Source of the DNA: a virus
DNA length: 59,258 bases
Direction: 5' to 3' (one strand)
IMG/VR virus record: IMGVR_UViG_3300033153_002543
Span: 1-59,258 of that record
In this document: positions 20,293 through 36,947 of the stretch, piece after piece
How positions within the stretch are numbered: position 1 is the first letter of the stretch
Layout of the letters: each line of letters opens with the position of its first letter
The notes under the pieces: model-generated
The model's input: only the letters and a program-made list of their open reading frames with translations
Databases searched by the model: none
Told to the model about the DNA's origin: nothing
Translations under genes and position numbers: made by a program

Positions 20293-20298
20293 AACAAT

Positions 20299-20398: not shown

Positions 20399-20491
20399 AT
20401 GAAGAGTACTGAAACAATATAGACTCATGATCCACCTTGGGATATTGTATTAACTATAACAATTAAATCAATATACTACAAGGAGAATTAA
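20399..20491 (+). CDS. 30-codon ORF with in-frame amber codon
   Basis: AAGGAGAAACAAA precedes ATG at 20399. The reading frame MKSTETI meets TAG at 20420-20422, then stays open for 22 more codons (THDPPWDIVL...) to TAA at 20489-20491, just before the next gene. It starts 25 bp after the CUA tRNA. If UAG is read through, a 30-residue peptide results. Otherwise it is a 7-residue leader. It may report suppression level; coincidence is possible. Confidence 0.35.
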
Positions 20492-20492
20492 A

Positions 20493-21118: not shown

Positions 21119-21192
21119 GTCTCGTTCATCTAATGGTAGGATATCAGGTTTTCAACCTGAGTACAGGGGATCAATACCCCTACGAGACACCA
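21119..21192 (+). tRNA. tRNA-Glu(UUC)
   Basis: Acceptor GTCTCGT/ACGAGAC, stem TCAGG/CCTGA with loop TTTTCAA (UUC), T arm AGGGG-ATCAATA-CCCCT, encoded CCA. Confidence 0.9.
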
Positions 21193-21230
21193 ATTTCCGC
21201 ACTTATGGGCATCAGCTCCATAAGTATGAA

Positions 21231-21256
21231 GCCTCACGTAAAACTGAGGCTTTTTT
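21231..21256 (+). terminator. intrinsic terminator inside tRNA array
   Basis: GCCTCA/TGAGGC with an 8-nt loop and six T. A preceding hairpin ACTTATGG/CCATAAGT (21201-21225) may be a processing site. The T-run directly abuts tRNA-Gln, so read-through or processing is needed for that tRNA. Confidence 0.8.
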
Positions 21257-21335
21257 AGCTCTGTGGCGCAGAATGGTAATGCACCTGACTTTGAATCAGG
21301 GTATTTTGTTGGTTCGAATCCAACCAGAGCTTCCA
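21257..21335 (+). tRNA. tRNA-Gln(UUG)
   Basis: Acceptor AGCTCTG/CAGAGCT, loop CTTTGAA (UUG) on stem CCTGA/TCAGG, T arm GTTGG-TTCGAAT-CCAAC, encoded CCA. Confidence 0.9.
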
Positions 21336-21343
21336 AATTATAT

Positions 21344-21415
21344 GTCCCACGCAACTGGATGCAATCTTGACTACGAATTAGGATGTTCTAGGTTCGAATC
21401 CTAGGTGGGGCTCCA
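21344..21415 (+). tRNA. tRNA-Arg(ACG), reduced D arm
   Basis: Acceptor GTCCCAC/GTGGGGC, anticodon arm CTTGA-CTACGAA-TTAGG (ACG), canonical T arm CTAGG-TTCGAAT-CCTAG, encoded CCA. The D region is only GCA-ACTGGA-TGC. It retains GG, but the arm is shorter than normal. Confidence 0.65.
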
Positions 21416-21422
21416 AACAATG

Positions 21423-21500
21423 ATGTGGTATCTGTCTGCAGCAGGGGATTGGCTGGTTGCCTATGTATACCCCTAGGTTCAATTCCTATACCGTGTCCCA
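21423..21500 (+). tRNA. tRNA-like gene, possibly Thr(GGU)
   Basis: Acceptor ATGTGGT/ACCGTGT (several G-U), T loop TTCAATT and encoded CCA are present. The best anticodon loop is CTGGTTG (GGU), with T at position 37 and a T-T mismatch in the stem. D region CTG-TCTGCAG-CAG. Isotype uncertain; may be decaying. Confidence 0.45.
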
Positions 21501-21506
21501 AACAAT

Positions 21507-21592
21507 GGAAGGTGCTGCTAAAAGGATGGCGACTAGGTTTGAACCCTAGAGTGACGGCAACGTTAGGGGTTCGACTCCTCCACCTTCTTCCA
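21507..21592 (+). tRNA. tRNA-Ser(UGA)
   Basis: Acceptor GGAAGGT/ACCTTCT, stem CTAGG/CCTAG with loop TTTGAAC (UGA), long variable arm, T loop TTCGACT, encoded CCA. Confidence 0.85.
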
Positions 21593-21643
21593 AATTGTAA
21601 CTAAAAAATTTTAACTCGGCGCCAAACCACCGAGAAATATTAT

Positions 21644-21718
21644 GGTATAGTAGCTAACAGGTAAAGCAACATCTTCATAAGGTGCGAAATGAGAGTTCAA
21701 TTCTCTCCTATACTACCA
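21644..21718 (+). tRNA. tRNA with CAU anticodon (Met or Ile2)
   Basis: Acceptor GGTATAG/CTATACT (G1-U72), loop TTCATAA (CAU), T arm GAGAG-TTCAATT-CTCTC, encoded CCA. A second class I CAU tRNA. Confidence 0.83.
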
Positions 21719-21731
21719 AATAGGAAAATGT

Positions 21732-21893
21732 ATGATATGTCCCGTATGTGACATGGGGATATTAGAACCCTTACTAGATGAAAATGGCTATAGGTATAAT
21801 ATTTGTGATAGCTGTGGTTCAGAGCTAATAACACCTAAAGATTCAAGATATAATAAAGCGAGAAGAGCAGTAAATATAAATAAGGAAGATTGA
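21732..21893 (+). CDS. zinc-ribbon protein overlapping a tRNA (53 aa)
   Basis: MICPVCDMGILEPLLDENG... NICDSCGSEL carries two CxxC pairs, a classic small zinc ribbon. TAGGAAAATGT precedes the ATG. Its last 10 bases lie inside tRNA-Ser(GCU), so processing of the tRNA would cut the mRNA. Confidence 0.6.
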   Translation: MICPVCDMGILEPLLDENGYRYNICDSCGSELITPKDSRYNKARRAVNINKED

Positions 21894-21970
21894 CTGAATG
21901 GTAAAGTGCTGGGTTGCTAACCCAAGGCCACCGAAAGGTGAAATAGGTTCAATTCCTATATCTTCCACCA
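21884..21970 (+). tRNA. tRNA-Ser(GCU)
   Basis: Acceptor GGAAGAT/ATCTTCC, loop TTGCTAA (GCU), variable arm with CACC/GGTG stem, T loop TTCAATT, encoded CCA. Confidence 0.9.
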
Positions 21971-21983
21971 AACAAGGATAAGT

Positions 21984-22250
21984 ATGTTAGAAAAAATCAA
22001 ATCAAATCTAGGCTTCACACTAAACTTAGTAAGTCTAATAGCAACTGCCTTCGCAGTACTGATCTATTTGCAAACTACATTTGTACAGGCATCTGAGTTC
22101 ACTAAGTTTAAGGTAGATGCATGGGAAGATGAAGTATACAAACTAGCTATTAAAGAAAACAGACTTGCAAATGTTGGTAAAAAATTAAAGCCAGAAGAAA
22201 AAGCATATTTAGAATTATTAAAAGCCAGACTACAAGCAATTAAAAAATAG
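21984..22250 (+). CDS. hypothetical protein with N-terminal membrane segment (88 aa)
   Basis: Residues 10-34 are hydrophobic (LNLVSLIATAFAVLIYLQTT); the rest is a charged helix resembling phage spanin-like or small periplasmic proteins. A perfect CTTC hairpin (22044-22057) lies in the membrane segment. AAGGATAAGT precedes the ATG. Confidence 0.6.
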   Translation: MLEKIKSNLGFTLNLVSLIATAFAVLIYLQTTFVQASEFTKFKVDAWEDEVYKLAIKENRLANVGKKLKPEEKAYLELLKARLQAIKK

Positions 22251-22253
22251 TAG

Positions 22254-22282
22254 TTGACTTCGCAACAATAATTGGGTATAAT
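22254..22282 (+). promoter_or_regulatory. sigma70-type promoter
   Basis: TTGACT at 22254-22259 and TATAAT at 22277-22282, 17-bp spacer of the TTCGCAAC type. The expected start of transcription coincides with the next ATG. Confidence 0.9.
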
Positions 22283-22288
22283 ACGTTT

Positions 22289-22495
22289 ATGAAATCAGAA
22301 AAGCCAAAGATTATAGAAATGTTTGATAAGTTACCAAAGGTAATTACTAGTTGCGAAAATATCTTCCAACTTATTGTAGCACAGAAATATGCACACTTAG
22401 CATATAAAAAGTTTAACCAATCTAAAGTATTACGTGGATTTGGTAATCAATTATTAAGAGATAAACACGAGAAATTAAAGAATGGTAATAGATAA
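22289..22495 (+). CDS. hypothetical protein, probably leaderless mRNA (68 aa)
   Basis: The ATG lies 7 bp after the -10 box, leaving no room for a ribosome-binding site, so the mRNA may be leaderless. An internal ATG at 22319 is an alternative. The product is a basic, helical 68-residue protein. No family. Confidence 0.5.
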   Translation: MKSEKPKIIEMFDKLPKVITSCENIFQLIVAQKYAHLAYKKFNQSKVLRGFGNQLLRDKHEKLKNGNR

Positions 22496-22658
22496 GTTGA
22501 TATTAATGGAAAAAACCATTAAAGTAATTGCTACCAGCACAACAAAAGAGCAAAGAAATGTAGCTATTAGATATTACTTCAGAGCTGCACGCCTAGCAAA
22601 TTTTACAGAACTAGACTTTTCATATATACTACAAAGAGTAAAAGATAGTGACCAATAA
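22482..22658 (+). CDS. hypothetical helical protein (58 aa)
   Basis: Starts 14 bp inside the previous gene. MVIDKLILMEKTIKVIATST... then YYFRAARLANFTELD. The family is unknown. Overlaps the next ORF by 11 bp. Confidence 0.5.
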   Translation: MVIDKLILMEKTIKVIATSTTKEQRNVAIRYYFRAARLANFTELDFSYILQRVKDSDQ

Positions 22659-22821
22659 AAAAGAAAGAAAAGAATATATAGGTAATGATACCGAATTACT
22701 ATTGAGACTCGCTGATTTAGCGGTTTCAAAGATAGAGCTAATGTTAGATTGGCAAGATTATAACAGAAAGAATAATAATGAATTATCATGGAAAAAATAT
22801 AATGCTCCTGTGGTGAAATAG
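22648..22821 (+). CDS. hypothetical protein overlapping tRNA-Leu (57 aa)
   Basis: A GTG start in overlap with the previous gene. The frame runs LLLRLADLAVSKIELMLDWQ and ends inside tRNA-Leu(UAG). The overlap with a tRNA makes the C-terminus uncertain. Confidence 0.4.
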   Translation: MTNKKERKEYIGNDTELLLRLADLAVSKIELMLDWQDYNRKNNNELSWKKYNAPVVK

Positions 22822-22888
22822 GTAGACACGCTAGATTTAGAATCTAGTGCAGAGATGCGTGAAGGTTCGATTCCTTTCAGGAGTACCA
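22804..22888 (+). tRNA. tRNA-Leu(UAG)
   Basis: Acceptor GCTCCTG/CAGGAGT, stem CTAGA/TCTAG with loop TTTAGAA (UAG), variable arm, T loop TTCGATT, encoded CCA. Confidence 0.9.
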
Positions 22889-22896
22889 AACAATTT

Positions 22897-22971
22897 GGGG
22901 ATATAGTGCTAACGGGAACACACCGCGCTTGCAACGCGGAAATCTGAGTTCGATTCTCAGTTTCTCCACCA
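22897..22971 (+). tRNA. tRNA-Ala(UGC)
   Basis: Acceptor GGGGATA/TTTCTCC, stem CCGCG/CGCGG with loop CTTGCAA (UGC), T arm CTGAG-TTCGATT-CTCAG, encoded CCA. The acceptor's third pair is G-U, the AlaRS identity position. Confidence 0.9.
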
Positions 22972-23190
22972 AATATTAATACACAGCGAAACTAGGTAAA
23001 CCAGACCAAAGCTAGGAACAGTTGCAGTAAGTCGCTGGGGATTTTCGAAAGGTTAGGTAGCTCAAATTACGTAAGAGTCTAATCAAGATTTCCCTAATAC
23101 CAAGGATGGTCTTGTGTTATTTGATATGTATTTAAGTTAAAAAGCCACACCTTGCGGTAGGTTCTTAAGTACATATCAAATTTCAACAAT
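22972..23190 (+). ncRNA. structured RNA region with 17-bp hairpin (h)
   Basis: Bases 23120-23136 pair with 23164-23180 over 17 bp (one G-U), enclosing an inner helix around CTTGC. Upstream, CAGCGA/TCGCTG and CTAG complements suggest a second fold at 22982-23038. No ORF fits. It resembles the long-stem RNAs near Ro60, but lies 5 kb from it. Confidence 0.5.
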
Positions 23191-23265
23191 GCTGGGTAGG
23201 CCGATTGGCGAGGCGTTAGTTTTACATACTAATAGTACACGGTTCGATTCCGTGATCCAGTACCA
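23191..23265 (+). tRNA. tRNA-Val(UAC)
   Basis: Acceptor GCTGGGT/ATCCAGT, D arm GCC...GGC, stem TTAGT/ACTAA with loop TTTACAT (UAC), T arm CACGG-TTCGATT-CCGTG, encoded CCA. Confidence 0.9.
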
Positions 23266-23283
23266 ACTTAAGAGAATAGTACA

Positions 23284-24078
23284 ATGTTAATCAGACCAGT
23301 ATCAGACCTCCATTTAGAATTTAGTTATGGAAATATGCGTCTGAATGAATTACCTACAGATAAAGACACAGTTCTTATCTTAGCAGGTGATATTGGCTTA
23401 GCTAGTAAGCCACATACTTATATGGATTTTTTTCATGACAAAGCTAATAGATTCCGTGATGTTATTTATATTATGGGTAATCATGAACATTATAAAGGTA
23501 GTTTTTCTTGCTCTAAAGGTAGAGTTAAAGACAATCTTGCTGAGTTTGTTAATGTTCATGTAATGGAAAAAGAATCCTTAGTTATAGATGATACTGTATT
23601 TATTGCAGCAACTCTATGGACAAGTATGAATAACCATGATATTTTGTGTATGGAACAGTCTAGACTTACTATGAATGATTATACAACTATTAGACACGGA
23701 ACATCTGCAGAACCTTGGAAACGCAAATTAAAACCAATAGATACTGTAGAAGATCATTTAAATGCGAAACACTATATTTTTGAAGAAATTAAAAAACATA
23801 AAGATAAAAAAGTAGTAGTTATTAGTCATCATGCTCCTAGTTTTAAATCTGTACCTGAAGAATTTAAAGGGGATACTATTAATGGTGCTTATGCTTCAGA
23901 ATTATTTGAGGACATTATGGAACATAATCCTGATATCTGGATTCACGGCCATACGCATAATAGCTTTAATTATATGGTTGGGGATACTAATATTATCTGC
24001 AATCCTAGAGGCTATCACACAGAAAGTGGACAATACTTAAACTTAACCTTTAATGAGGAGCTTGTAATAAATGTCTAA
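23284..24078 (+). CDS. calcineurin-like metallophosphoesterase (264 aa)
   Basis: SDLHLEF (residues 7-13), LAGDIGL (34-40), MGNHEHY (61-67), SHHAP and HGHTHNSFNY are the conserved metal-ligand blocks of the calcineurin-type fold. At 264 residues it is the longer of the two such genes and is closest to Icc/MJ0936-like enzymes. The substrate is not deducible. AGAGAATAGTACA precedes the ATG. Confidence 0.88.
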   Translation: MLIRPVSDLHLEFSYGNMRLNELPTDKDTVLILAGDIGLASKPHTYMDFFHDKANRFRDVIYIMGNHEHYKGSFSCSKGRVKDNLAEFVNVHVMEKESLVIDDTVFIAATLWTSMNNHDILCMEQSRLTMNDYTTIRHGTSAEPWKRKLKPIDTVEDHLNAKHYIFEEIKKHKDKKVVVISHHAPSFKSVPEEFKGDTINGAYASELFEDIMEHNPDIWIHGHTHNSFNYMVGDTNIICNPRGYHTESGQYLNLTFNEELVINV

Positions 24079-24238
24079 ATTATTATATATTGTTAAATTT
24101 TGTACTAAGAATCAGCTTTTTGAATCTAAGACTGAAGAATATTTTTATAGTAAAGATAAAGCAGATGCATTAGTTGATAAGTATAGATCTGATGATTATC
24201 ATTGGGCAATTTTACATACAATACAACCTGAGGAATAA
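24071..24238 (+). CDS. hypothetical protein (55 aa)
   Basis: Overlaps the phosphoesterase by 8 bp. MSKLLYIVKFCTKNQLFESK... DKADALVDKYR, a small strand-helix protein of unknown role. Confidence 0.5.
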   Translation: MSKLLYIVKFCTKNQLFESKTEEYFYSKDKADALVDKYRSDDYHWAILHTIQPEE

Positions 24239-24240
24239 AA

Positions 24241-24384
24241 ATGAAAGAACGTAAAGATTATATGACAAATACACAAAAGGTTGCAATGGGCAACTTACCG
24301 AGAACTCATGCAAATTGTAAATTACATACAAAAGTAATGAGACCGGGAAAAACAGCTAAAGATAGAGCTAATGGCGGTCATTAA
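24241..24384 (+). CDS. small basic protein (47 aa)
   Basis: GAGGAATAAAA precedes the ATG. MKERKDYMTNTQKVAMGNLP... ends KDRANGGH. Very basic; possible nucleic-acid binder. Supported by position only. Confidence 0.45.
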   Translation: MKERKDYMTNTQKVAMGNLPRTHANCKLHTKVMRPGKTAKDRANGGH

Positions 24385-24392
24385 AGAACTAT

Positions 24393-24482
24393 AGCAAGGT
24401 CGAGAAGTCTGGTCATCTCATGGGGCTCATAACCCTAATCGCCTAACAGCGTTCGCAGGTTCGAATCCTGCCTTTGCTTCCA
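24393..24482 (+). tRNA. type II tRNA with CAU anticodon
   Basis: Acceptor AGCAAGG/CTTTGCT, D arm GAGA-AGTCTGGTCA-TCTC, stem TGGGG/CCCTA with loop CTCATAA (CAU), a 17-nt variable arm with CGC/GCG stem, T arm GCAGG-TTCGAAT-CCTGC, encoded CCA. Long variable arms belong to Leu, Ser and Tyr tRNAs, so a CAU anticodon here is unusual. Isotype unclear. Confidence 0.8.
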
Positions 24483-24542
24483 GTTAAAGAAGTCACTCAC
24501 ACCACGCAATTAGAGCGGAAATGTCAAACTTCTATAAATTAT

Positions 24543-24619
24543 TCCTTACGGGCCCTCTTGGTGGGGGCATACGGCTGTTAACCGTAACGCGTCCTGTTCG
24601 AATCGGGAGTAAGGAGCCA
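24543..24619 (+). tRNA. tRNA-Asn(GUU)
   Basis: Acceptor TCCTTAC/GTAAGGA with G73, stem TACGG/CCGTA and loop CTGTTAA (GUU), T loop TTCGAAT, encoded CCA. Confidence 0.92.
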
Positions 24620-24625
24620 ATCAAT

Positions 24626-24697
24626 GCCATGTGTTCTGGGAACTAGAGAGCCTCCAAAACTCTTCATCGCAGGGTTCGACTCCCTGTCGTGGTGCCA
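24626..24697 (+). tRNA. tRNA-Trp(CCA)
   Basis: Acceptor GCCATGT/TCGTGGT with G73, stem AGAGC/ACTCT (C31-A39 mismatch) with loop CTCCAAA (CCA), T arm CAGGG-TTCGACT-CCCTG, encoded CCA. The D arm is short (TCT/AGA). Confidence 0.85.
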
Positions 24698-24715
24698 ACT
24701 TAAATAGTACTAAGT

Positions 24716-24904
24716 ATGTCTAACATTAAAGAAACAATAGAATATTTAAAAGGTACTTGTAATACACTAGATGATGAAGATTTCACTATAGAAGAATTAA
24801 CATTATTAGATGATGAAATTTTTCTTTGTGATATTTGTAACTGGTGGTGTGAAGTATGTGAAATGTCTGAAACAGACCATGCAGTCTGTACAGACTGTGA
24901 ATAA
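24716..24904 (+). CDS. cysteine-rich zinc-binding protein (62 aa)
   Basis: An acidic N-terminal half is followed by CDIC, CEVC and CTDC pairs (residues 38-61), a probable zinc-finger. Stop codon 2 bp before tRNA-Pro. Function unknown. Confidence 0.6.
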   Translation: MSNIKETIEYLKGTCNTLDDEDFTIEELTLLDDEIFLCDICNWWCEVCEMSETDHAVCTDCE

Positions 24905-24905
24905 T

Positions 24906-24979
24906 CTGGATGTAATGTACTGGCTGCATCCGAGCCTTGGAAGCTCGTAGAGTGAGTTCGATTCTCACCTTCCAGACCA
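24906..24979 (+). tRNA. tRNA-Pro(UGG)
   Basis: Acceptor CTGGATG/CTTCCAG, stem CGAGC/GCTCG with loop CTTGGAA (UGG), T arm GTGAG-TTCGATT-CTCAC, encoded CCA. Confidence 0.9.
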
Positions 24980-24985
24980 AACAAT

Positions 24986-25065
24986 AGTTAGTTATGGTAG
25001 TATGGGCTTCATGAGCCCAGCCAAGTGCACTTGGTTTGTAGGTTCGAATCCTACGCTAACGACCA
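24986..25065 (+). tRNA. type II tRNA with CAU anticodon, minimal D arm
   Basis: Stem TGGGC/GCCCA with loop TTCATGA (CAU); variable arm CCAAG-TGCA-CTTGG is a perfect hairpin; T arm GTAGG-TTCGAAT-CCTAC; encoded CCA. The D region is only TAT-GGTA-GTA. The first acceptor pair is A-G. A second class II CAU tRNA. Confidence 0.7.
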
Positions 25066-25071
25066 ATTTAA

Positions 25072-25147
25072 GGGATTGTAGCACAACTGGTAGTGCAGTG
25101 GATTGTCTATCCGAAGGTTGCGAGTTCGAATCTCGTCATTCCCGCCA
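25072..25147 (+). tRNA. tRNA-Asp(GUC)
   Basis: Acceptor GGGATTG/CATTCCC with G73, D arm GCAC...GTGC, loop TTGTCTA (GUC), T arm GCGAG-TTCGAAT-CTCGT, encoded CCA. Confidence 0.88.
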
Positions 25148-25153
25148 AATAAT

Positions 25154-25228
25154 GTACCTGTGGCTGAATGATTAGGCGGCGGATTGCAAATGCGCACAAT
25201 GCAGGTTTGAATCCTGTCAGGTATTCCA
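25154..25228 (+). tRNA. tRNA-Cys(GCA)
   Basis: Acceptor GTACCTG/CAGGTAT, D arm GCTG...GGC, loop TTGCAAA (GCA), T loop TTTGAAT, encoded CCA with U73, the Cys discriminator. Confidence 0.88.
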
Positions 25229-25230
25229 CT

Positions 25231-25587
25231 ATGAAAATATTACTTATAAGCTTTATTTTATTAATTAGTTGTTCAGATAGCAATGTTGAACATACAGTAT
25301 CTCAGCAATGCGGCGATGCTAGCCTTAATACCTACACCTTATCTTGGGACAATGTTTTAGATAGTGACTTAAAAGCATACAAAGTATATTATAAACTAAA
25401 AGACAATACACAATTAACTAAAACTAATAGTAATTACTCTAGCGAACTAACAACAAATACATGGTTTATAGACCCAATAGAATTGAGTTTATCAATCTGT
25501 GATAAAGTAGAGTTTGGTGTAGTTGCTATAGGTAACACTAAAAGTGAATCCATACTATCTAGTACACTAGTAATAATAATAGATTAA
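25231..25587 (+). CDS. lipoprotein with fibronectin-III-like domain (118 aa)
   Basis: The ATG at 25231 lies 2 bp after the tRNA-Cys end, and an upstream extension through the tRNA is rejected. MKILLISFILLISCSDS is a lipoprotein signal with the cysteine at residue 14. The mature part shows a beta-sandwich pattern (LSWDNVLDSDLKAYKVYYKL... VEFGVVAI) typical of FN3 folds. It is probably anchored in the host outer membrane; superinfection blocking would be one possibility, not shown. Confidence 0.65.
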   Translation: MKILLISFILLISCSDSNVEHTVSQQCGDASLNTYTLSWDNVLDSDLKAYKVYYKLKDNTQLTKTNSNYSSELTTNTWFIDPIELSLSICDKVEFGVVAIGNTKSESILSSTLVIIID

Positions 25588-25603
25588 AACAAAGGACTGT
25601 AAT

Positions 25604-25864
25604 ATGAAAGATTTAGAACAACTAGAAAGAGACGCTATTAAGGAAAAAGAAACATTAGAGAATAAAGCATTAGAATTATTTATTAAAGACTTTATAGTTC
25701 AAGATTTAGAACAAATAGAACAAGCTGAAAATAAGTTAGATAGCTTAAAGAAGAAAAAAGATGCTAAAGATTTAGATTTTTATAAGCGCGAATTTAATAA
25801 AAGTGATATGCGCTCGGGTAGTTGTAGTACATATAAAGAGAACTATATAACTAAAGTTAAATAA
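25604..25864 (+). CDS. coiled-coil protein (86 aa)
   Basis: Nearly the whole length is charged helix with heptad leucines (QLERDAIKEKETLENKALEL). AAAGGACTGTAAT precedes the ATG. Role unknown. Confidence 0.6.
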   Translation: MKDLEQLERDAIKEKETLENKALELFIKDFIVQDLEQIEQAENKLDSLKKKKDAKDLDFYKREFNKSDMRSGSCSTYKENYITKVK

Positions 25865-25868
25865 TAAT

Positions 25869-25941
25869 GTGGCGATGGCTCAATGGTAGAGCGTCGAGTT
25901 GTGACCTCGAAGGCAAGGGTTCGATTCCCTACGTCACCCCA
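25869..25941 (+). tRNA. tRNA-His(GUG)
   Basis: Stem TCGAG/CTCGA with loop TTGTGAC (GUG), D arm GCTC...GAGC, T arm AGGG-TTCGATT-CCCT, C73, encoded CCA. Bacterial tRNA-His normally has an encoded G at -1 opposite C73. Here the base before G1 is T. Confidence 0.88.
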
Positions 25942-25966
25942 AATACAGCGAAACGGCTTAGCGGCC

Positions 25967-25993
25967 TTGTTAGGGCTCACTCCCTAACTAGCT
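25967..25993 (+). other. hairpin before HNH gene
   Basis: GTTAGGG-CTCACT-CCCTAAC is a 7-bp stem without a T-run. It lies between tRNA-His and the HNH gene and may be an RNA-processing or stabilising hairpin. Confidence 0.5.
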
Positions 25994-26014
25994 ATTAATA
26001 TTAGTGAGGATATA

Positions 26015-26605
26015 ATGAATATAGAAGAAGATAAGCTAGAAAAAATAAATGAGTATTTGAAAATATTTGTAGATATAGAAGTATTAAATAAATGTTCAAA
26101 ATTAGAAGAGTATAAGAAAGCATTAGTATTAGGCACGTATAGAAAAGCAAATATAAGTACAGTAACGTATGCAAAGTATAATAGATTACTATGCCCTGAT
26201 AAAGGAAAGAATGATCACCCACTGGGGTATATCCTAGATGTTTTAGGGTACAAGTACTGTGCTCAATGTAAAGAAATAAAGCGTGTACCTAAATTTAGTA
26301 AAAATAAAACAAGGAATTATGGGTTACACCCGCAATGTAAACCTTGCGATTATGCTAATACTTTGAGAACTCAAAAACATAGGCAAGCTAAATATAAAGC
26401 AGCCAAGCTTAAAAGAACACCTAAATGGGCTGATTTGTTAAAAATAAAAGACATATATAATAAATGTCCTAAAGGCTATCACGTAGATCATGAAATACCT
26501 CTACAAGGTAAGCTAGTTAGTGGTTTGCATGTTGAAAGTAATCTGCAATATTTAACAGCTACAGAAAATATAAAGAAAGGTAATAGATATACCCCGGTAA
26601 CTTAA
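26015..26605 (+). CDS. HNH endonuclease with zinc finger (196 aa)
   Basis: A zinc site CAQCKEIKRVPKFSKN ... CKPC (about residues 87-114) is followed by GYHVDHEIPLQGKLVSGLHV and ESNLQYLTATEN, the HNH core (His, Asp-His, Asn). This arrangement matches group I-type free-standing homing endonucleases of phages. Its 3' end overlaps tRNA-Ile by 15 bp. It may be mobile and use the tRNA locus as target (inference). Confidence 0.85.
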   Translation: MNIEEDKLEKINEYLKIFVDIEVLNKCSKLEEYKKALVLGTYRKANISTVTYAKYNRLLCPDKGKNDHPLGYILDVLGYKYCAQCKEIKRVPKFSKNKTRNYGLHPQCKPCDYANTLRTQKHRQAKYKAAKLKRTPKWADLLKIKDIYNKCPKGYHVDHEIPLQGKLVSGLHVESNLQYLTATENIKKGNRYTPVT

Positions 26606-26666
26606 AGGCTAAGTGCTGAGCTGATAACTCAGTGTCATGCTGGTTCGAATCCAGCTCGGGGTACCA
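26591..26666 (+). tRNA. tRNA-Ile(GAU)
   Basis: Acceptor ACCCCGG/TCGGGGT, stem CTGAG/CTCAG with loop CTGATAA (GAU), T arm GCTGG-TTCGAAT-CCAGC, encoded CCA. Its first 15 bases are also the last codons of the HNH gene. Confidence 0.9.
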
Positions 26667-26682
26667 AATAAAAAGGAAACAT

Positions 26683-26886
26683 ATGTCTACAGAAATACAA
26701 GATAGAGTCATGGATATATGTGTTGCGTATGAAGAAGGCTACGCAGTAGGAGAACAAAACATGAGTTCCACTTTTAATATTTACCCGCATGAAACGGAGA
26801 AGTATTATGCTTGGTATTATGGACACACAAATTCATTAACAAACCAGATGTTAGCTCCTAAAGAAATAACATTCGAATTAGAATAA
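26683..26886 (+). CDS. hypothetical protein (67 aa)
   Basis: The ATG at 26683 follows AAAAGGAAACAT; an extension into tRNA-Ile is rejected. MSTEIQDRVMDICVAYEEGY... contains YYAWYYGH. No family. The stop is immediately before tRNA-Phe. Confidence 0.6.
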   Translation: MSTEIQDRVMDICVAYEEGYAVGEQNMSSTFNIYPHETEKYYAWYYGHTNSLTNQMLAPKEITFELE

Positions 26887-26962
26887 GGAAATGTAGCTCC
26901 AATGGTAGAGCGATTGGTTGAAGCCCAGTGCGTTGTAGGTTCGAGTCCTACCATTTCCACCA
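26887..26962 (+). tRNA. tRNA-Phe(GAA)
   Basis: Acceptor GGAAATG/CATTTCC, D arm GCTC...GAGC, loop TTGAAGC (GAA) on ATTGG/CCAGT, T arm GTAGG-TTCGAGT-CCTAC, encoded CCA. Confidence 0.9.
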
Positions 26963-26975
26963 AATTAGAGGTTAT

Positions 26976-27428
26976 ATGATTAAATATTTATTAGTATTTT
27001 TAGCACTAACAAGCAACGCAGTTGCATTAGAGTACATTGAAGAAGAGATCAAATGTTTAGCAGATAATATATATTTTGAAGCTAGAAATGAATCCATCAA
27101 AGGCCAAGTAGCTGTAGCCTTAGTAACCATTAATAGAGTTAAATCTAAACATTACCCAGATAATATCTGTGATGTAGTATGGGAACACAAGCAATTTTCA
27201 TGGACATTAGATGGTAAATCAGATACACCTAGAGAAGGTAAGGCATATAATAGGTCTGTATTAGTAGCTACTATATTACTTAATTCTATGTATATAAATG
27301 ATGATTTTCATGATTTCACAGAAGGTGCAACACATTACCATGCAAATTATGTTAGACCTTATTGGGCACACAATATGAAATATATTGCATCTATTGATAA
27401 CCATATATTTTATAAATTTAAAAAATAG
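26976..27428 (+). CDS. SleB-type cell-wall hydrolase, secreted (150 aa)
   Basis: The ATG at 26976 gives a signal peptide MIKYLLVFLALTSNAVA. The mature part has CLADNIYFEARNESIKGQVA, then VALVTINRVKS, the hallmark of the SleB/CwlJ hydrolase family (Glu in YFEARNE as catalytic residue). TEGATHYHANYVRPYW is the second family block. It would cut peptidoglycan in the periplasm. Because it is among early-type genes far from the lysis cassette, a role other than final lysis is possible. Confidence 0.85.
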   Translation: MIKYLLVFLALTSNAVALEYIEEEIKCLADNIYFEARNESIKGQVAVALVTINRVKSKHYPDNICDVVWEHKQFSWTLDGKSDTPREGKAYNRSVLVATILLNSMYINDDFHDFTEGATHYHANYVRPYWAHNMKYIASIDNHIFYKFKK

Positions 27429-27431
27429 TTG

Positions 27432-27460
27432 TTGACTTCGCAACTATGATTTGATATAAT
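27432..27460 (+). promoter_or_regulatory. sigma70-type promoter before tRNA-Lys
   Basis: TTGACT at 27432-27437 and TATAAT at 27455-27460, 17-bp spacer of the TTCGCAAC type. Confidence 0.9.
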
Positions 27461-27491
27461 ATATTTTCAAATCGAGAAACAAAACATTTTC

Positions 27492-27567
27492 GGAACACTA
27501 ACTCAATTGGCAGAGTACTCGGCTTTTAACCGATAGGTTCCCAGTTCAAATCTGGGGTGTTCCACCA
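27492..27567 (+). tRNA. tRNA-Lys(UUU)
   Basis: Acceptor GGAACAC/GTGTTCC, stem CTCGG/CCGAT with loop CTTTTAA (UUU), T arm CCCAG-TTCAAAT-CTGGG, encoded CCA. It has its own promoter 32 bp upstream. Confidence 0.93.
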
Positions 27568-27589: not shown

Positions 27590-27886
27590 ATGATAGAAAC
27601 GATAGGCTGGCTAGGTAGCTTCTTCTTTGCAATTTGTGGTTTTCCACAAGCATGGACAAGTTACAAAGCTAAGAACTCAGATGGGATTTCCCAAGGGTTC
27701 TTATGGTTATGGATTCTAGGTGAGGTATTTACTCTTTTTTACGTTATGGCTCAGGATACTATTTTAGTACCCCTCATTGCAAATTATTTGGTTAATTTGT
27801 TATCTTTGGTAGTAATAGTATATTATAAGTATAACGCAACACCTCAATTAATTAATGGAAAAAACCACTGGATAACTAATGACTGA
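27590..27886 (+). CDS. SemiSWEET / PQ-loop membrane protein (98 aa)
   Basis: Three hydrophobic helices (about 3-22, 38-56, 60-79). The first ends in the PQ motif (GFPQ, Pro19-Gln20) followed by AWTSYKAKNSDGIS, a close match to bacterial SemiSWEETs, small dimeric sugar transporters. Length (98 aa) fits. The substrate cannot be inferred. A transporter of this type is unusual in a phage. Confidence 0.8.
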   Translation: MIETIGWLGSFFFAICGFPQAWTSYKAKNSDGISQGFLWLWILGEVFTLFYVMAQDTILVPLIANYLVNLLSLVVIVYYKYNATPQLINGKNHWITND

Positions 27887-28043: not shown

Positions 28044-28825
28044 TTAGTAAGAATAGTGTAATGAGTAAACCTTATTCAAAAGGCATTAAAGAAGATTTAG
28101 CCCCTTATTTAGTTAATGTAGTAGAAACCAACGAACCAAAAAATAAATTTAGGTATGTATTTAATATAAGTTGTGCTTCAGCTTCTATAATTACTCAATT
28201 TGATAACCTAACAAGAAATTTAAAATGCTGGAGGAAATTATCTAAATATGAAATTGTTTGGTTAACAAATTCAACATTTTTAAAAGAAATGTATGAAAAA
28301 AGGGTTGTAGGTGGTTCACGTAGAAGTGCACAAATAGACTTATCAAACCCCTGTATGGAAATACACAATAGAGAAACACCTGAAGATATTCATTACCAAG
28401 GGATACATTCATTATCATTTAGTGTATCGAGTTTAGATACAAAAGATAAAATACAGAATGGTGGTTGGAGTAATACCAATATGCTATCTAATAAAGATGA
28501 TACAATAACTTTCAGTTATGATTATGACACAAACAATAAGGAAAAAGAAATGAACGATAAATTTAAAGTAGTATTTAGTATTGATATTAATGTTAATGGT
28601 AAGGATTATAAATTAACAGACCCTATTAAGTCTGAAGATGCATTACCTGTAATATTACAACTTGGTAAACGAGCTAAAGTTCTAAATGAACGAAAAGAAC
28701 TATTAGTAGATGCTGTTGAGAACTTAGGAAGTATTTCAAGTGTAACTGAAGTACTAGATAATGAATTAGAAGAACTTCAAGAGCTTTTAAAGCATATTAA
28801 TGATAATATCGAAGATATTGATTAA
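28040..28825 (+). CDS. hypothetical protein, possibly with internal start (261 aa)
   Basis: The N-terminal ~170 residues and C-terminal ~90 residues look like separate units. At 28551 an internal ATG preceded by AAGGAAAAAGAA begins MNDKFKVVFSIDINVNGKDY, so a shorter second product is possible. The C-terminus is a coiled coil. Neither part is recognised. It ends right at the tmRNA gene. Confidence 0.6.
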   Translation: MISKNSVMSKPYSKGIKEDLAPYLVNVVETNEPKNKFRYVFNISCASASIITQFDNLTRNLKCWRKLSKYEIVWLTNSTFLKEMYEKRVVGGSRRSAQIDLSNPCMEIHNRETPEDIHYQGIHSLSFSVSSLDTKDKIQNGGWSNTNMLSNKDDTITFSYDYDTNNKEKEMNDKFKVVFSIDINVNGKDYKLTDPIKSEDALPVILQLGKRAKVLNERKELLVDAVENLGSISSVTEVLDNELEELQELLKHINDNIEDID

Positions 28826-28829
28826 TATT

Positions 28830-29046
28830 ATTGTATGAAATTAATGATAGAATTATAAGACGGCGGTTCGATTCCGCCCTCTTCCAATACGACGGGAGAG
28901 TACTGGCTTCGATTGTAGTTGGATAATTAATGGACAATACGTTATCAGACGTAATCTGGTAAAATATAATTGCAAACGATGAAACTTTCGCAATAGCTGC
29001 TTAGTAGTAGCTGGGGTATGGGTTACCTTGCAACAGAACAACCCAC
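28830..29046 (+). ncRNA. ssrA: circularly permuted (two-piece) tmRNA
   Basis: The acceptor piece comes first: P2 strand, T arm GGCGG-TTCGATT-CCGCC (28862-28878), acceptor strand CTCTTCC and A73 (28886). After a 7-nt spacer the coding piece starts GGGAGAG (28894-28900), pairing with CTCTTCC over 7 bp with G3-U70, the alanine identity. P2 forms from ACAAT/ATTGT and ATTAAT/ATTAAT. The tag GCA AAC GAT GAA ACT TTC ... reads ANDETFAIAA and is followed by TAG TAG TAG (from 29002). A GGGTT/AACCC hairpin closes the 3' part. CCA is not encoded. tmRNA with SmpB rescues stalled ribosomes and tags the product for proteolysis. Exact ends are approximate. Confidence 0.93.
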
Positions 29047-29064
29047 TAATTAAAAGGAGATTAT

Positions 29065-29304
29065 ATGAAATATTTACTATTATCAGGATTATTACTATTA
29101 ACAGGGTGTAGTGATGGAATATTTACAACTACTACTACCAATACATTAATTACACCTGACCACAACTATGAAATTGATACATGGGGCAGTAATTCAGAGG
29201 TATATGAATTTACACCTAAAAGCAATTTGCAAAAGTCATGTATTTTTGTAATGCTAGACTCAGGCAAAGCTATGGGACTACAATGCTTTGATAAGCAGAA
29301 ATGA
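29065..29304 (+). CDS. small lipoprotein (79 aa)
   Basis: MKYLLLSGLLLLTGCSDG is a textbook lipoprotein signal (LTGC). The mature part starts with a Thr-rich segment and has two later cysteines. AAAAGGAGATTAT precedes the ATG. An outer-membrane anchored phage protein, perhaps an exclusion or receptor-masking factor (inference). Confidence 0.7.
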   Translation: MKYLLLSGLLLLTGCSDGIFTTTTTNTLITPDHNYEIDTWGSNSEVYEFTPKSNLQKSCIFVMLDSGKAMGLQCFDKQK

Positions 29305-29675
29305 GTAAAATAACACTACTAAGAGCAAAAGAAATATTAGAGAGTATTACACTAATAGATGTCTTCGCATCATTAGTTTCTAATACATTATTAGAAGATA
29401 AAGTTATCTTACAAACACAACTTAACTTAACTAATAAAATATATCAAGCTGAGAATCATTTTTGTATTAATGATATTAAAAATCAAGTTAATTTGTTAAG
29501 GTTAAAACAAGAATATTACCATCCAGCTAATATATTATTCTACTATAAAGATGATATAACTCAAGAAGTTAAAGATAGTAATAAAGATATATATAATGAA
29601 ATTACAATTAATATAGATTTATTAGAGAGTAAAATTAAAGATATGTCTAAAGATATATACATAGAGGCAGATTAG
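29301..29675 (+). CDS. hypothetical helical protein (124 aa)
   Basis: Overlaps the lipoprotein gene by 4 bp and the GroES gene by 1 bp. MSKITLLRAKEILESITLID... predicted mostly helical, ending in a coiled coil. No family. Confidence 0.6.
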   Translation: MSKITLLRAKEILESITLIDVFASLVSNTLLEDKVILQTQLNLTNKIYQAENHFCINDIKNQVNLLRLKQEYYHPANILFYYKDDITQEVKDSNKDIYNEITINIDLLESKIKDMSKDIYIEAD

Positions 29676-29950
29676 TGAAAATAAGACCAATGAGAAATAG
29701 ATTATTAGTTAAACTTAGTGAAATGATTACTAAGACGCAGGGAGGAATCTTGCTCCCAGAAGAAAAGAGGCCAACCACTGGAACAGTAATTGAAGCTGGA
29801 ATAGATGATTTAGGTGAAATTTTAAATAAAGGTGATGTAATATTATTTGGTAAATATGCAGGAACACCTATTAAGTTAGAAAATGAAGATTTTGTGATGA
29901 TGTCCTACACAGACATTATAGCAGTTGTTGAAACAACAGATGAAAAATAG
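29675..29950 (+). CDS. GroES-like co-chaperonin (91 aa)
   Basis: IRPMRNRLLVKLSEMITKTQGGILLPE (in two parts) carries the Cpn10 N-terminal strand and mobile loop (GGILLP). TGTVIEAG, GDVILFGKYAGT and DFVMMSYTDIIAVV complete the fold; length 91 is near the usual 94-97. It would cap host GroEL. Phages such as T4 (gp31) use their own co-chaperonin for capsid protein folding. Confidence 0.92.
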   Translation: MKIRPMRNRLLVKLSEMITKTQGGILLPEEKRPTTGTVIEAGIDDLGEILNKGDVILFGKYAGTPIKLENEDFVMMSYTDIIAVVETTDEK

Positions 29951-31815: not shown

Positions 31816-32140
31816 GCGCACAGGAAAAGCTTTTAAAGCGTATTATAAAAATTATGACTGGGATTTTAATGTTGCACAACGACTAGAAAGGCACATCAAA
31901 AATCAACCAGAGGATGAAGTAGCCAAGCAAGCATTAAACCGTTTAAAGAGTGGCAAAAAGAAATATACTAGAAATAGGAAATCAGATGGCCATATCTGTA
32001 AGGTAGCACCTAGTATAGCAATCACCACCTCTCGTGGTGATGATAGACCTACAATCATAGACCAAATGGTAAATATAGGATTCAAATATCGTGGAAGAAA
32101 TAAGAAAACTACTAGACAGGGCAAATCACGCGTACGATAA
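31805..32140 (+). CDS. hypothetical very basic protein (111 aa)
   Basis: K/R content is very high throughout (MKGKRTGKAFKAYYKNYDWD ... KKYTRNRKSDGH). A nucleic-acid-binding role is plausible. Overlaps the ligase A start by 50 bp. Confidence 0.6.
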   Translation: MKGKRTGKAFKAYYKNYDWDFNVAQRLERHIKNQPEDEVAKQALNRLKSGKKKYTRNRKSDGHICKVAPSIAITTSRGDDRPTIIDQMVNIGFKYRGRNKKTTRQGKSRVR

Positions 32141-33038
32141 TGGAAACCCATTTATGTCCGATGCAGTATTTGATTCTTTATGTGAGAAGTACAACTACAA
32201 TGATTTTGGTTCTGAACCAGAGGTGAAGGCGAAGCATCTATTTAAGATGTATAGCCTTCAAAAAGTGTTTGATAGCGACCCAGAACCTTCAACAATGCAA
32301 GGAATAGCAATAGTTACCCCCAAGCTAGATGGAGCAGCCATTAGTCTAACTTACGTTGAAGGAACTCTAGTGAAAGGAATCACTAGGGGTAGGGACGGTA
32401 TCGAAGGTGAGAATATTACAGAAAATATTTATCATCTAGTACCTAATACTGTGAGTATTAAAGGTACAGTACAGATTACTGGCGAAGTAGTCTGTGACAA
32501 GAATATTGAAAATGCTCGTAATTATGCAGCAGGATCTTTAAGATTAAAAAATCCAAATGAATTCAAAGAAAGAGTAAAACAATTAAACTTTATAGCTTAT
32601 GGGCTTCAACCCTATTGCCGTGATACATTTACTAAGGACATGCAATTATTAGAGGATAATAGATTTTTTACAGTATTTGCAAATGATCTAGAAGACCAAT
32701 ATAGGACTGATGGTGAAGTATATAGGTTAGATAATAATGACTTATTTAGTTCTTTAGGTTATACTGCGAAACACCCTAGAGGTGCGTATGCTAGGAAACA
32801 GAAATCAGATGTAGCTATTGAAGAAACAGTATTACTAGAGGTTATTTGGCAAGTGGGTAGAACAGGACAAGTAACTCCTGTAGCTATTTTTGAAGAGATA
32901 GTTATAGATGATGCTAAGATAACTAGAGCAACATTGCATAATGTTGGGTTTATAGAAGAAATGGGATTAGAGCTTGGAGATACAATTCTAGTTACTAGAG
33001 CTGGTGGTATAATACCAAAAGTATTAGGGAGAGCATAA
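32091..33038 (+). CDS. ligA: NAD-dependent DNA ligase, subunit A (adenylation and OB domains)
   Basis: A partial Ia domain (YDNGNPFMSDAVFDSL) leads to the adenylation motif TPKLDGAA (nucleophile Lys78), GRDGIEGENITENI, the NYAAGSLR block and an OB fold ending HNVGFIEEMGLELGDTI, TRAGGIIPKV. The protein stops where zinc, HhH and BRCT domains would follow; these are encoded at 33331. T5 splits its ligase in the same way. The GTG start lies inside the previous gene. It seals nicks using NAD+. Confidence 0.93.
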   Translation: MEEIRKLLDRANHAYDNGNPFMSDAVFDSLCEKYNYNDFGSEPEVKAKHLFKMYSLQKVFDSDPEPSTMQGIAIVTPKLDGAAISLTYVEGTLVKGITRGRDGIEGENITENIYHLVPNTVSIKGTVQITGEVVCDKNIENARNYAAGSLRLKNPNEFKERVKQLNFIAYGLQPYCRDTFTKDMQLLEDNRFFTVFANDLEDQYRTDGEVYRLDNNDLFSSLGYTAKHPRGAYARKQKSDVAIEETVLLEVIWQVGRTGQVTPVAIFEEIVIDDAKITRATLHNVGFIEEMGLELGDTILVTRAGGIIPKVLGRA

Positions 33039-33220
33039 TGGAAGGGTTACAAATGAAATATTTTGTGTTAAGTCCCAACAAGGATGATGCTTATGGACAA
33101 GCAAGCAGGGAAGCACTATTATCTTATGCTAGTGCTATTGAAGGAACTAATCCCACGTTAACATCAGATTTAAGGCGATGGGTACATATAGCAGCCTCAG
33201 ATATTGAAAAGAGTAAATAA
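33038..33220 (+). CDS. hypothetical protein between ligase halves (60 aa)
   Basis: MEGLQMKYFVLSPNKDDAYG, then QASREALLSYASAIEG and WVHIAASDIEKSK. It begins on the last base of ligA. A small phage protein of unknown function. Confidence 0.6.
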   Translation: MEGLQMKYFVLSPNKDDAYGQASREALLSYASAIEGTNPTLTSDLRRWVHIAASDIEKSK

Positions 33221-33292
33221 ATTTAACCTCGCGCCAACCACACCAACATTTACATAAATTAATATTACGTGTTAGCATACGAAAAATATTAC

Positions 33293-33321
33293 TTGACATT
33301 TTAGTTAAAAGTGAGTATAAT
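33293..33321 (+). promoter_or_regulatory. sigma70-type promoter
   Basis: TTGACA at 33293-33298 and TATAAT at 33316-33321, 17-bp spacer. The ligB ATG is only 9 bp from the -10 box. Confidence 0.9.
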
Positions 33322-33330
33322 ACATATCAA

Positions 33331-34077
33331 ATGAAAATAGAAATTATAAAAGAATGTCCCGTATGTAGTTCAAAACTAATAAGGGTTAATGACCAATTAT
33401 TTTGTAAAAATACTCTATGTGATGCAAAAGTATTTAAAAGTATTATACATTTTGTAAAGGCATTAAAGATTAAAGGATTGGGCGAAAAAACTATTGAAAA
33501 ATTGGATTTAGATAGTATCAATTCAATTTATAATTTATCAAATGAATTAATAAAATCCACTCTTGGTGACAAAGTAGGAACTAAATTAATTTCCGAGATA
33601 GAAAAAAGTAAGAATACCACAGTTGATAAATATATAACTGGTTTTGGTATACCCCTAGTGGGAAAAACTGCCTCTGAGAAACTTGCACAGCATACGTCAG
33701 ATATTTGGAATATTGACGCTAATGTTTGTAGTTTAGCAGGATTAGGCGAAAAAGCAACTAATAATCTATTAGATTGGATATTGCACAATGAAGATAGATA
33801 TAAAAACTTACCTATTAAAACATTGGAAGTATCACCTCAAACTCAAACTGAAACTACACTTAAAATATGTGTAACAGGGAAGTTAAATGATTTTACCTCT
33901 AGGGAAAAGGCAAAGACATATCTTAAAGATTATGGAATACAAGTAGTAAGTAGTGTAAGTAGTAATATTGATTATTTAGTTTGTGATGTAGAAGGCAGTA
34001 GTTCATCTAGTGTCAAGAAAGCAAAGAAACTAGATATTGAAGTGATTACTATGAATAATTTATTAAAATTAATTTAA
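33331..34077 (+). CDS. ligB: NAD-dependent DNA ligase, subunit B (Zn, HhH, BRCT)
   Basis: A four-cysteine zinc finger (CPVC ... CKNTLC, residues 9-31) is followed by helix-hairpin-helix repeats (IKGLGEKTIEKL, LAGLGEKATNNLL) and a C-terminal BRCT domain (KICVTGKLNDFTSREKAKTY). These are exactly the DNA-binding parts missing from subunit A. The ATG is 2-3 bases from the expected transcription start, so this mRNA looks leaderless. Confidence 0.92.
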   Translation: MKIEIIKECPVCSSKLIRVNDQLFCKNTLCDAKVFKSIIHFVKALKIKGLGEKTIEKLDLDSINSIYNLSNELIKSTLGDKVGTKLISEIEKSKNTTVDKYITGFGIPLVGKTASEKLAQHTSDIWNIDANVCSLAGLGEKATNNLLDWILHNEDRYKNLPIKTLEVSPQTQTETTLKICVTGKLNDFTSREKAKTYLKDYGIQVVSSVSSNIDYLVCDVEGSSSSSVKKAKKLDIEVITMNNLLKLI

Positions 34078-34088
34078 AGGAGATTTAA

Positions 34089-34835
34089 ATGAGTAATAAC
34101 GTACCTAAGTGGAACGAAGAAAGAGAAGCAACATTAACAGCAATCGTTGGTTCAACAAGCCCAGTAACAGCAGAAGTAGTAACTTCAGCAGCAGAAAAAT
34201 TAGAAACTACTACACGTTCAGTAGCATCTAAACTACGTAAAATGGGTTTTGAAGTAGACTCTATGAGTAAAAATAGTTCTAAGAACTATACAGAAGCTCA
34301 AGAAGCTGAATTAAGTGACTTCTTAAACAAGCATGATGGTCAATATACCTATGCAGAAGTTGCAGCAGCAGTATTTAGTGGAGCTTTCTCTACTAAGCAA
34401 ATCCAAGGAAAAATTCTTTCTATGGAATTAACTTCTAAAGTTAAACCAACTCCTAAAGCAGAAGTTGTTAAGACTTATTCTGATGCAGAAGAAGCTAAGC
34501 TATTAGCATTGCTTTCATCTGGTGACATGTTCATCGAAGACATCGCAGAAAAGATGGATCGTGCTGTAAATTCTGTACGTGGTAAAATTCTTTCTATGAG
34601 TCGTACTAATGATAGCATCTCTATCCCTAAGCAAAAGAACTACAAGTCTAAAGACGCTGTAGATCCTATTGAAGCTTTAGGTGATATTTCAGATACAACT
34701 GTTGAAGATATTGCAGAAGCAATTGAAAAGACTGTACGTGGTGTAAAAACTATGTTAACACATCGTGGTTTAACTTGTAAGAACTATGATGGTGCTAAGC
34801 GCGCTGAGAAATTAGCAACTGCTAAAGCAGGCTAA
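34089..34835 (+). CDS. three-repeat HTH DNA-binding protein (248 aa), paralogue 4
   Basis: The HTH block occurs three times: AEKLETTTRSVASKLRKMGF, AEKMDRAVNSVRGKILSMSR and AEAIEKTVRGVKTMLTHRGL, plus a more diverged copy near residue 90. It sits where T5 has its abundant D5 DNA-binding protein, just before the helicase. AAAGGAGATTTAA precedes the ATG and an intrinsic terminator follows, suggesting strong expression. Position and repeats suggest a D5-like role (inference). Confidence 0.75.
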   Translation: MSNNVPKWNEEREATLTAIVGSTSPVTAEVVTSAAEKLETTTRSVASKLRKMGFEVDSMSKNSSKNYTEAQEAELSDFLNKHDGQYTYAEVAAAVFSGAFSTKQIQGKILSMELTSKVKPTPKAEVVKTYSDAEEAKLLALLSSGDMFIEDIAEKMDRAVNSVRGKILSMSRTNDSISIPKQKNYKSKDAVDPIEALGDISDTTVEDIAEAIEKTVRGVKTMLTHRGLTCKNYDGAKRAEKLATAKAG

Positions 34836-34849
34836 TTAGCCCCTTATTA

Positions 34850-34880
34850 AACACTAGGTATTAAGTTGCCTAGTGTTTTT
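34850..34880 (+). terminator. intrinsic terminator / attenuator before helicase
   Basis: ACACTAGG/CCTAGTGT with a 10-nt loop and a T-run. It separates the DNA-binding protein gene from the helicase gene, which has no promoter of its own in sight, so partial read-through is likely. Confidence 0.85.
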
Positions 34881-34919
34881 TATTCTTTAAATTTAATCAA
34901 AAATAAAAGGTGCATTAAT

Positions 34920-36245
34920 GTGTCAGATGTTGCAGGAATTGTATTACACAATGTTTTAAAAAATCCTGAAAGCTCTATTGAAATCTGGCCTAGACTTAAA
35001 ATTCACTTTTTCAACTCAGACTATGAAGAAATCTTTAGGTCTATAAATAAATATTATAATAAATATAATAACCTACCAACCTTTGAGGATCTAAAAGTAA
35101 CTCTTAGGGAACAATCTATTATTCAAAAGATAGTAGCACTTGAACTTTTAGATGTTTCAGATGATATAGATAATATTATTGCTACAGAAGCATTAACCGA
35201 TCAATATACACAAGACGAAACATTAAACCAATTATCTAAATTTATAGATAATATACCATCATATGATACTGTGGAAGTTAAAGAAGAATTAGCTAACATT
35301 TTATTAGATTTAGAACAAAAGACAGAGACCTCTGAAGAGATTTTCCTAATGAATGATATATTCGTTATAGATAACGAGGAAAAACACAGCAGAGTACCTT
35401 TAGGATTAAACAACACGTTTGATGCATTAACAGGAGGCCTATCTTTAACTGAATTAATAATGATAGGTGGTCATAGAGGCTCAGGAAAGACAGTTGCCGC
35501 ATGTAACATTGCAGTTAATCAGTATAACCAAGGTAACGTAGGTCTATTCTTCTCGATAGAAATGAGATATAGAGAAATATTTAATAGATTTATCTCAATA
35601 TTATCAGATGTTGATAATAACAAATTAAGGAATACGCGGTGTGATCCTAATGATTACATGAAAATAGCTAATTCCAGAAGTGATATGTTCACTGATAGTG
35701 AAGAAGTATTACAAGATTTCATACAACATAGAGATTATGAAAAATTTGAAAAGGACTTAGTTAAGTCCAAAAAGTTAAAACCAGACAACCAACTTATAAT
35801 TGTAGATAATCAATCATTAACAATGGCAGATATAGACTTAAATATAACTAAGTTTAAAATGCAATTTGGTGATAAGCTGAAAGTAGTTGTAGTAGACTAT
35901 GTAAACCAAATACAAACACCAGATATATTTGACTGGAAAAATCAAATCTCAATGTCAAAGGGTCTTAAGACCTTAGCTAGAAAGCATGATATTGTAATGA
36001 TTACACCATATCAAACCGATACTACTGGAGAAGCTAGATTTGCTAAAGGTCTACTAGATGCCGCCGACGTTGCGGCAAACTTAGAAGCTAATGATGATTT
36101 TATTACATTTACAAGTACTAAAACTAGAAATATAGCCCCATTTCAATTCAATTCACCTATCAACTGGGATACGTTTTCATTATCACCAACAGATGCAGTA
36201 ATTGAATCAGATGATGGAGAGGGTGTAAGTGATACACCCGTATAA
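34920..36245 (+). CDS. DnaB-like replicative helicase
   Basis: The GTG at 34920 follows AAAAGG; an upstream extension would run into the terminator and is rejected. The 441-residue protein has an N-terminal primase-interaction-like helical domain and a RecA-type core with Walker A GGHRGSGKT (about 183-191), LFFSIEM, a Walker B-like VVVVDYVNQI and TPYQTD. Order after the ligase genes matches T5 D6. It unwinds DNA at the fork. Confidence 0.88.
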   Translation: MSDVAGIVLHNVLKNPESSIEIWPRLKIHFFNSDYEEIFRSINKYYNKYNNLPTFEDLKVTLREQSIIQKIVALELLDVSDDIDNIIATEALTDQYTQDETLNQLSKFIDNIPSYDTVEVKEELANILLDLEQKTETSEEIFLMNDIFVIDNEEKHSRVPLGLNNTFDALTGGLSLTELIMIGGHRGSGKTVAACNIAVNQYNQGNVGLFFSIEMRYREIFNRFISILSDVDNNKLRNTRCDPNDYMKIANSRSDMFTDSEEVLQDFIQHRDYEKFEKDLVKSKKLKPDNQLIIVDNQSLTMADIDLNITKFKMQFGDKLKVVVVDYVNQIQTPDIFDWKNQISMSKGLKTLARKHDIVMITPYQTDTTGEARFAKGLLDAADVAANLEANDDFITFTSTKTRNIAPFQFNSPINWDTFSLSPTDAVIESDDGEGVSDTPV

Positions 36246-36257
36246 AGGAATATAAAA

Positions 36258-36728
36258 ATGTTTAATACCGAAAAGAAATTAAGAGAACGCATTGCAGTTC
36301 TTGAGAATCAAGTAGAGATACTAATTACAGAAAAAGATCAGGAACGCAATAAAAAGTTAAAAGAGTTAAAGACAGTTACTGAAAAACTAGAGTCTTTAGA
36401 AAAAGAAAAGAAAAATTTAAGAAACACCAATGAAGACTTAAAAGCTAGTAATACTAGAGAAGAAGAAAATATTCAGCATAAAGTTAAGATTGTTATGGAA
36501 AAGAATGAGTTTAATTTAGCAAAGAAAATACAAGAAGCTGAAAAAGCTAAAGATGTTGAAGTTGGCAAAATTAAAGATGAATATAGAAATAAACGTGAGA
36601 AACAACTAGAAGATCAAAGTGCAAATATGAAAGAAATGTACACTGACGTATTAGATAAGTTAACAAAAGTAACTGGTACACTCAGCCAACCACAACAGGT
36701 CGCAAATAATGGCAATCTCAATAAATAA
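36258..36728 (+). CDS. coiled-coil protein (156 aa)
   Basis: Almost the entire protein is E/K/L-rich coiled coil (residues 5-125), ending in a short Gln-rich tail. It lies between helicase and primase and may be a scaffold for the replication complex. Not recognised. Confidence 0.65.
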   Translation: MFNTEKKLRERIAVLENQVEILITEKDQERNKKLKELKTVTEKLESLEKEKKNLRNTNEDLKASNTREEENIQHKVKIVMEKNEFNLAKKIQEAEKAKDVEVGKIKDEYRNKREKQLEDQSANMKEMYTDVLDKLTKVTGTLSQPQQVANNGNLNK

Positions 36729-36945
36729 TTCATTCGGTTTTTCTAGTGTGGGCACTATTAGTGGTACTACTACTGCTACTACGTATATTATTAATGATCC
36801 CTATAATGATCTCTATAGTAATTATAATACTATGGCCTATCCTACTACTGCCCCATTAAACGAAAGTGTGGGTAGAGTTTTAACCTTTGAAGAGAAATTG
36901 CAGAAAGAAATTGATGATTGGCTACTTATATTTAAAGAGAATTAG
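36709..36945 (+). CDS. hypothetical Ser/Thr-rich protein (78 aa)
   Basis: Low-complexity N-terminus (SGTTTATTYIINDPYNDLYS) and an acidic helix at the end. Overlaps the coiled-coil gene by 20 bp, with 2 bp to the primase gene. Unknown. Confidence 0.55.
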   Translation: MAISINNSFGFSSVGTISGTTTATTYIINDPYNDLYSNYNTMAYPTTAPLNESVGRVLTFEEKLQKEIDDWLLIFKEN

Positions 36946-36947
36946 AA

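Follow-up and report, generated by a model that had tools for sequence, protein, structure and literature searches.

The window, meaning the whole stretch of DNA that was analysed, is a viral record of 59,258 bases, linear and probably partial. Its + strand carries 21 tRNA genes identified by ARAGORN (14490–27567), all ending in an encoded CCA, and further to the right a replication block (32091–47558; PHROGs) with genes for a split NAD ligase, D5 regulator, DnaB helicase, primase, PolA, helicase, SbcD/SbcC, and exonuclease in the T5 order. The same replication gene order is shared with Vibrio phage VCPH, Pectobacterium phage My1, Vibrio phage 70E35-1, and VPT02, and the T5-like order runs from ligase A/B through the exonuclease and then into opposite-strand genes, with the tail region identified by position only. 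This core gene order assigns the window to a T5-like (Demerecviridae-like) phage; the polymerase encoded in this 59-kb partial record is ~42% identical to those of the isolates. Beside the tRNA array there is a gene for a TROVE/Ro60-like RNA-binding protein (16681–18153; PF05731, 1.9e-22; PHROG 850), accompanied by one for a VWA-domain protein (14865–15443).

A permuted tmRNA gene (28829–29052, + strand, outer ends approximate) is located downstream of the tRNA region, with an unknown ORF on one side, a small lipoprotein-like ORF on the other, and a GroES-like gene beyond the latter. The small ORF lies directly after the tmRNA (29065–29304), starts MKYLLLSGLLLLTGCSDG, and has a lipoprotein-like signal. 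The GroES/Cpn10-like co-chaperonin gene (29675–29950, + strand; PF00166, 4.1e-19, and tblastn to phage groS) is two genes after this first ORF 3′ of the tmRNA. On the other side, a PQ-loop repeat membrane protein (PF04193) is encoded at 27590–27886, between tRNA-Lys and the tmRNA, and a cell wall hydrolase (PF07486) at 26928–27428, with a similar stretch near a related permuted tmRNA in the viral contig L100. A sigma70-like promoter, TTGACT-17-TATAAT (27432–27460, + strand), is positioned upstream of tRNA-Lys and the gene run that holds the tmRNA. This near-consensus promoter occurs five times in the window in nearly identical form, versus 0 expected (956–984, 7801–7829, 13155–13183, 22254–22282, and 27432–27460), and also in the relative L002 described below; the copies have an inverted repeat, AGTTG-acttcg-CAACT, over the −35 region that is conserved in L002 and is possibly an operator. 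The tmRNA gene and the 24 kb around it have no DNA similarity match among 50,697 phage records.

In the tmRNA gene the acceptor half comes first and the coding half second, and all of its parts are on the + strand. The acceptor piece (28829–28886) includes the P2 5′ strands, the T arm (GGCGG TTCGATT CCGCC; 28862–28878), and the acceptor 3′ strand CTCTTCC plus the discriminator A73 (28879–28886), but no CCA. A 7-nt intervening segment, ATACGAC (28887–28893), is expected to be excised. The coding piece begins with the acceptor 5′ strand GGGAGAG (28894–28900), which together with the D-like region that follows reads TACTGGCTTCGA (28894–28912), and continues with the P2 3′ strands TTGTAGT, ATTAAT, and ACAATA (28913–28939). 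The resume codon and tag frame, taken from ARAGORN and the sequence, specify ANDETFAIAA (28972–29001) and are followed by TAG TAG TAG, ending at 29010, and a 3′ hairpin, TGGGTT/AACCCA, lies at 29019–29045. The acceptor stem GGGAGAG/CTCTTCC has 7/7 pairs, including G3-U70, the pair read by AlaRS, and P2 contributes 19 more (28829–28834/28934–28939, 28840–28845/28926–28931, and 28852–28858/28913–28919). A preliminary description of this DNA had placed the gene at 28830–29046, correct within a few bases, and the order of the halves, the 7-bp acceptor stem with G3-U70, the P2 pairing between the halves, and the tag with its three stops are all present as it had described them.

Rfam covariance models, the Infernal check that had been proposed there, gave matches above the curated cut-offs for two families. 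The beta_tmRNA model (RF01850) matches end to end at 28783–29052 (111.3 bits, E=4.7e-33; cut-off 84 bits), and tmRNA_permuted (RF04321) at 28829–29004 (102.7 bits, E=6.2e-19; cut-off 47 bits), and with these E-values chance is ruled out. ARAGORN also reports a permuted tmRNA (tmRNA*) at 28797–29095 with the tag ANDETFAIAA and three stops. Single-strand folding gave a modest z of −2.5 and missed P2, and is therefore not counted as evidence.

The nearest relative found is an 81-kb phage contig (IMGVR_UViG_3300033143_001219; L002) that has a tmRNA gene of the same structure at the same place. Outside the intervening segment the two tmRNAs are ~83% identical, and the flanking genes are 72–77% identical. 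Six pairs differ on both sides with pairing kept (3/7 in the acceptor stem, 2/5 in the T stem, and one in the 3′ hairpin), and three P2 pairs are altered on one side only; none is broken in any helix, and all 19 P2 pairs are intact. Because the double-sided changes keep the pairing between the two genes, they are strong evidence that the RNA structure is under selection. The L002 tmRNA differs in its tag (ANDNDFAMAA), in having an extra hairpin after the tag that is missing in the window gene, and in having a 183-nt intervening segment and an encoded CCA. The curated models, the synteny, and the compensatory changes bear out the permuted phage tmRNA of the preliminary description and, as judged from sequence, confirm an intact and complete permuted (two-piece) tmRNA gene in a T5-like phage.

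The junction between the two halves is unusual. The window gene has AT after A73, where 80 of the 81 beta-like permuted genes compared have CC, and it is the only one of them without it; the phage's own tRNA genes encode CCA in every case (21/21). Segments of 7 nt are common in Accumulibacter-type bacterial genes, all reading CCA plus four bases, and the cyano-type viral permuted genes have 5–6 nt segments that are also without an encoded CCA, such that a short segment lacking CCA is not unprecedented. Both features would be explained if an L002-like segment had undergone a deletion that also removed the CCA. We rejected a CCA supplied through a shifted acceptor stem, in which only four acceptor pairs remain and G3-U70 is lost. 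The orthologous pair, with segments differing 26-fold (7 versus 183 nt), offers a natural test of the minimal sequence for a split tmRNA.

The window tmRNA scores 111 bits with the beta model, 49 with cyano, and 45 with alpha, and its L002 orthologue scores 56 with beta and 61 with alpha. The top-scoring model is thus that of the betaproteobacterial permuted ssrA genes (RF01850; Rhodocyclaceae, Accumulibacter, Gallionellaceae), which share an ANDExFAxAA-type tag and among which a 7-nt intervening segment is also found, but which keep CC after A73. The window gene is ~60% identical to these and to every other bacterial gene compared, versus 83% to the phage orthologue, which gives no support to a recent capture from any of the sampled hosts; the earlier suggestion that a host with permuted ssrA was the source of the gene could hold only if the transfer happened long ago. 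A tree of about 175 positions resolves only the grouping of the window with L002 (support 0.99) and perhaps L100 (0.93). A second T5-like contig (IMGVR_UViG_3300005611_002069; L155), with a 38% identical DNA polymerase, also has a permuted tmRNA (L155:1461–1954; RF01849, 111 bits) that was overlooked by ARAGORN and that differs in being alpha-type with a long intervening segment. The presence of an alpha-type gene in this distant T5-like phage suggests that permuted tmRNAs were gained by T5-like phages more than once, in separate acquisitions.

The sequence shows a complete tRNA-like domain that includes G3-U70, along with P2, a tag frame closed by three stops, and a 3′ hairpin. We consider it highly probable that this permuted ssrA gene carried by the phage is functional, and that host enzymes would process its RNA, give it a CCA tail, and charge it for action with host SmpB. 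Transcription would presumably start from the phage promoter at 27432–27460, host RNase P would cut before G28894, and the acceptor piece would be trimmed after A28886, with CCA added by the host nucleotidyltransferase, as the gene itself encodes none. The two pieces would be held together by the acceptor stem and P2, and the two-piece RNA could be charged by AlaRS and, with SmpB, free ribosomes stalled on broken messages and add ANDETFAIAA for proteolysis. SmpB would be supplied by the host; none was found in the window or L002, both of which may be partial records. If the proposed rescue holds, translation in infected cells would continue as host RNA is destroyed. The picture of trans-translation is unchanged by the window gene.

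The missing CCA is the reason for retaining a different role, in which the RNA is processed but, uncharged without CCA, sequesters SmpB or inhibits the host tmRNA. The lack of CC after A73 in only this one of the 81 beta-like genes compared would fit such a decoy, as would the precedent of mycobacteriophage DS6A, for whose short tRNA-like tmRNA a decoy role has been proposed (PMC4131195, PMC11915505). However, the tag frame is intact with its three stops, the G3-U70 identity pair is kept, the host CCA-adding enzyme would repair the 3′ end, and the cyano-type viral genes likewise do without an encoded CCA; we regard the decoy role as improbable. We give correspondingly little credence to the version in which the tmRNA shed its intervening segment and CCA and is either an uncharged decoy inhibiting host trans-translation or charged only when the host CCA-adding enzyme is free.

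The loss of the CCA and most of the intervening segment (7 nt in the window versus 183 nt in L002) could also mark a gene that is being lost in the phage lineage, as could the missing post-tag hairpin of L002, but with no helix pair broken and the tag, stops, and 3′ hairpin intact, a decaying copy seems quite unlikely. There is only the slightest chance that the locus is nonfunctional and was left behind by integration at a host ssrA gene. Integrating elements often use ssrA genes as their target site, as noted in PMC9004378, but the window gene is complete and not a 3′ fragment, it adjoins the tRNA genes in a T5-like phage, it is syntenic in L002, and no integrase is present among the proteins searched.

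The preliminary description knew of no phage with the permuted form, a view contradicted by a 2022 report that describes a two-piece tmRNA in Methylophilales phage Melnitz and lists 53 two-piece tmRNAs predicted by ARAGORN in isolate phages, with marine or aquatic samples as the source of 50 (PMC9004378). A tmRNA database contains 79 phage tmRNA sequences (PMC11915505). The Melnitz tmRNA is similarly phage-encoded, permuted, and complete with a tag, but it belongs to a myophage, and its gene is alpha-type and lies under a glutamine riboswitch (PMC9004378). The window derives from a T5-like phage whose tmRNA gene is beta-like, has a 7-nt intervening segment, and encodes no CCA, and no riboswitch scored above the Rfam cut-offs. 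Four T5-like isolates gave nothing above cut-off for a permuted tmRNA, and our literature search found no report of one in a T5-like phage. What is new here is therefore narrow, namely a permuted tmRNA in a T5-like phage with an intervening segment of only 7 nt and no encoded 3′ CCA, and it extends phage-encoded two-piece tmRNAs to the T5-like phages.

Permuted genes above cut-off are present in further IMG/VR viral contigs (L003, L006, L014, L032, L099, L100, L102, L104, and L105), some of the short ones among which could be bacterial fragments. Pattern hits in L008, L010, L017, L031, and L034 were discarded as one-piece tmRNAs of the ordinary kind preceded by a tRNA, and because many pattern-scan hits are of this kind, the first viral scan is not a count of permuted genes. 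In L102, a 176-kb phage contig with a permuted tmRNA (L161:2500–2790), the 96-nt intervening segment resembles a degenerate tRNA, with a T arm and closing stem.
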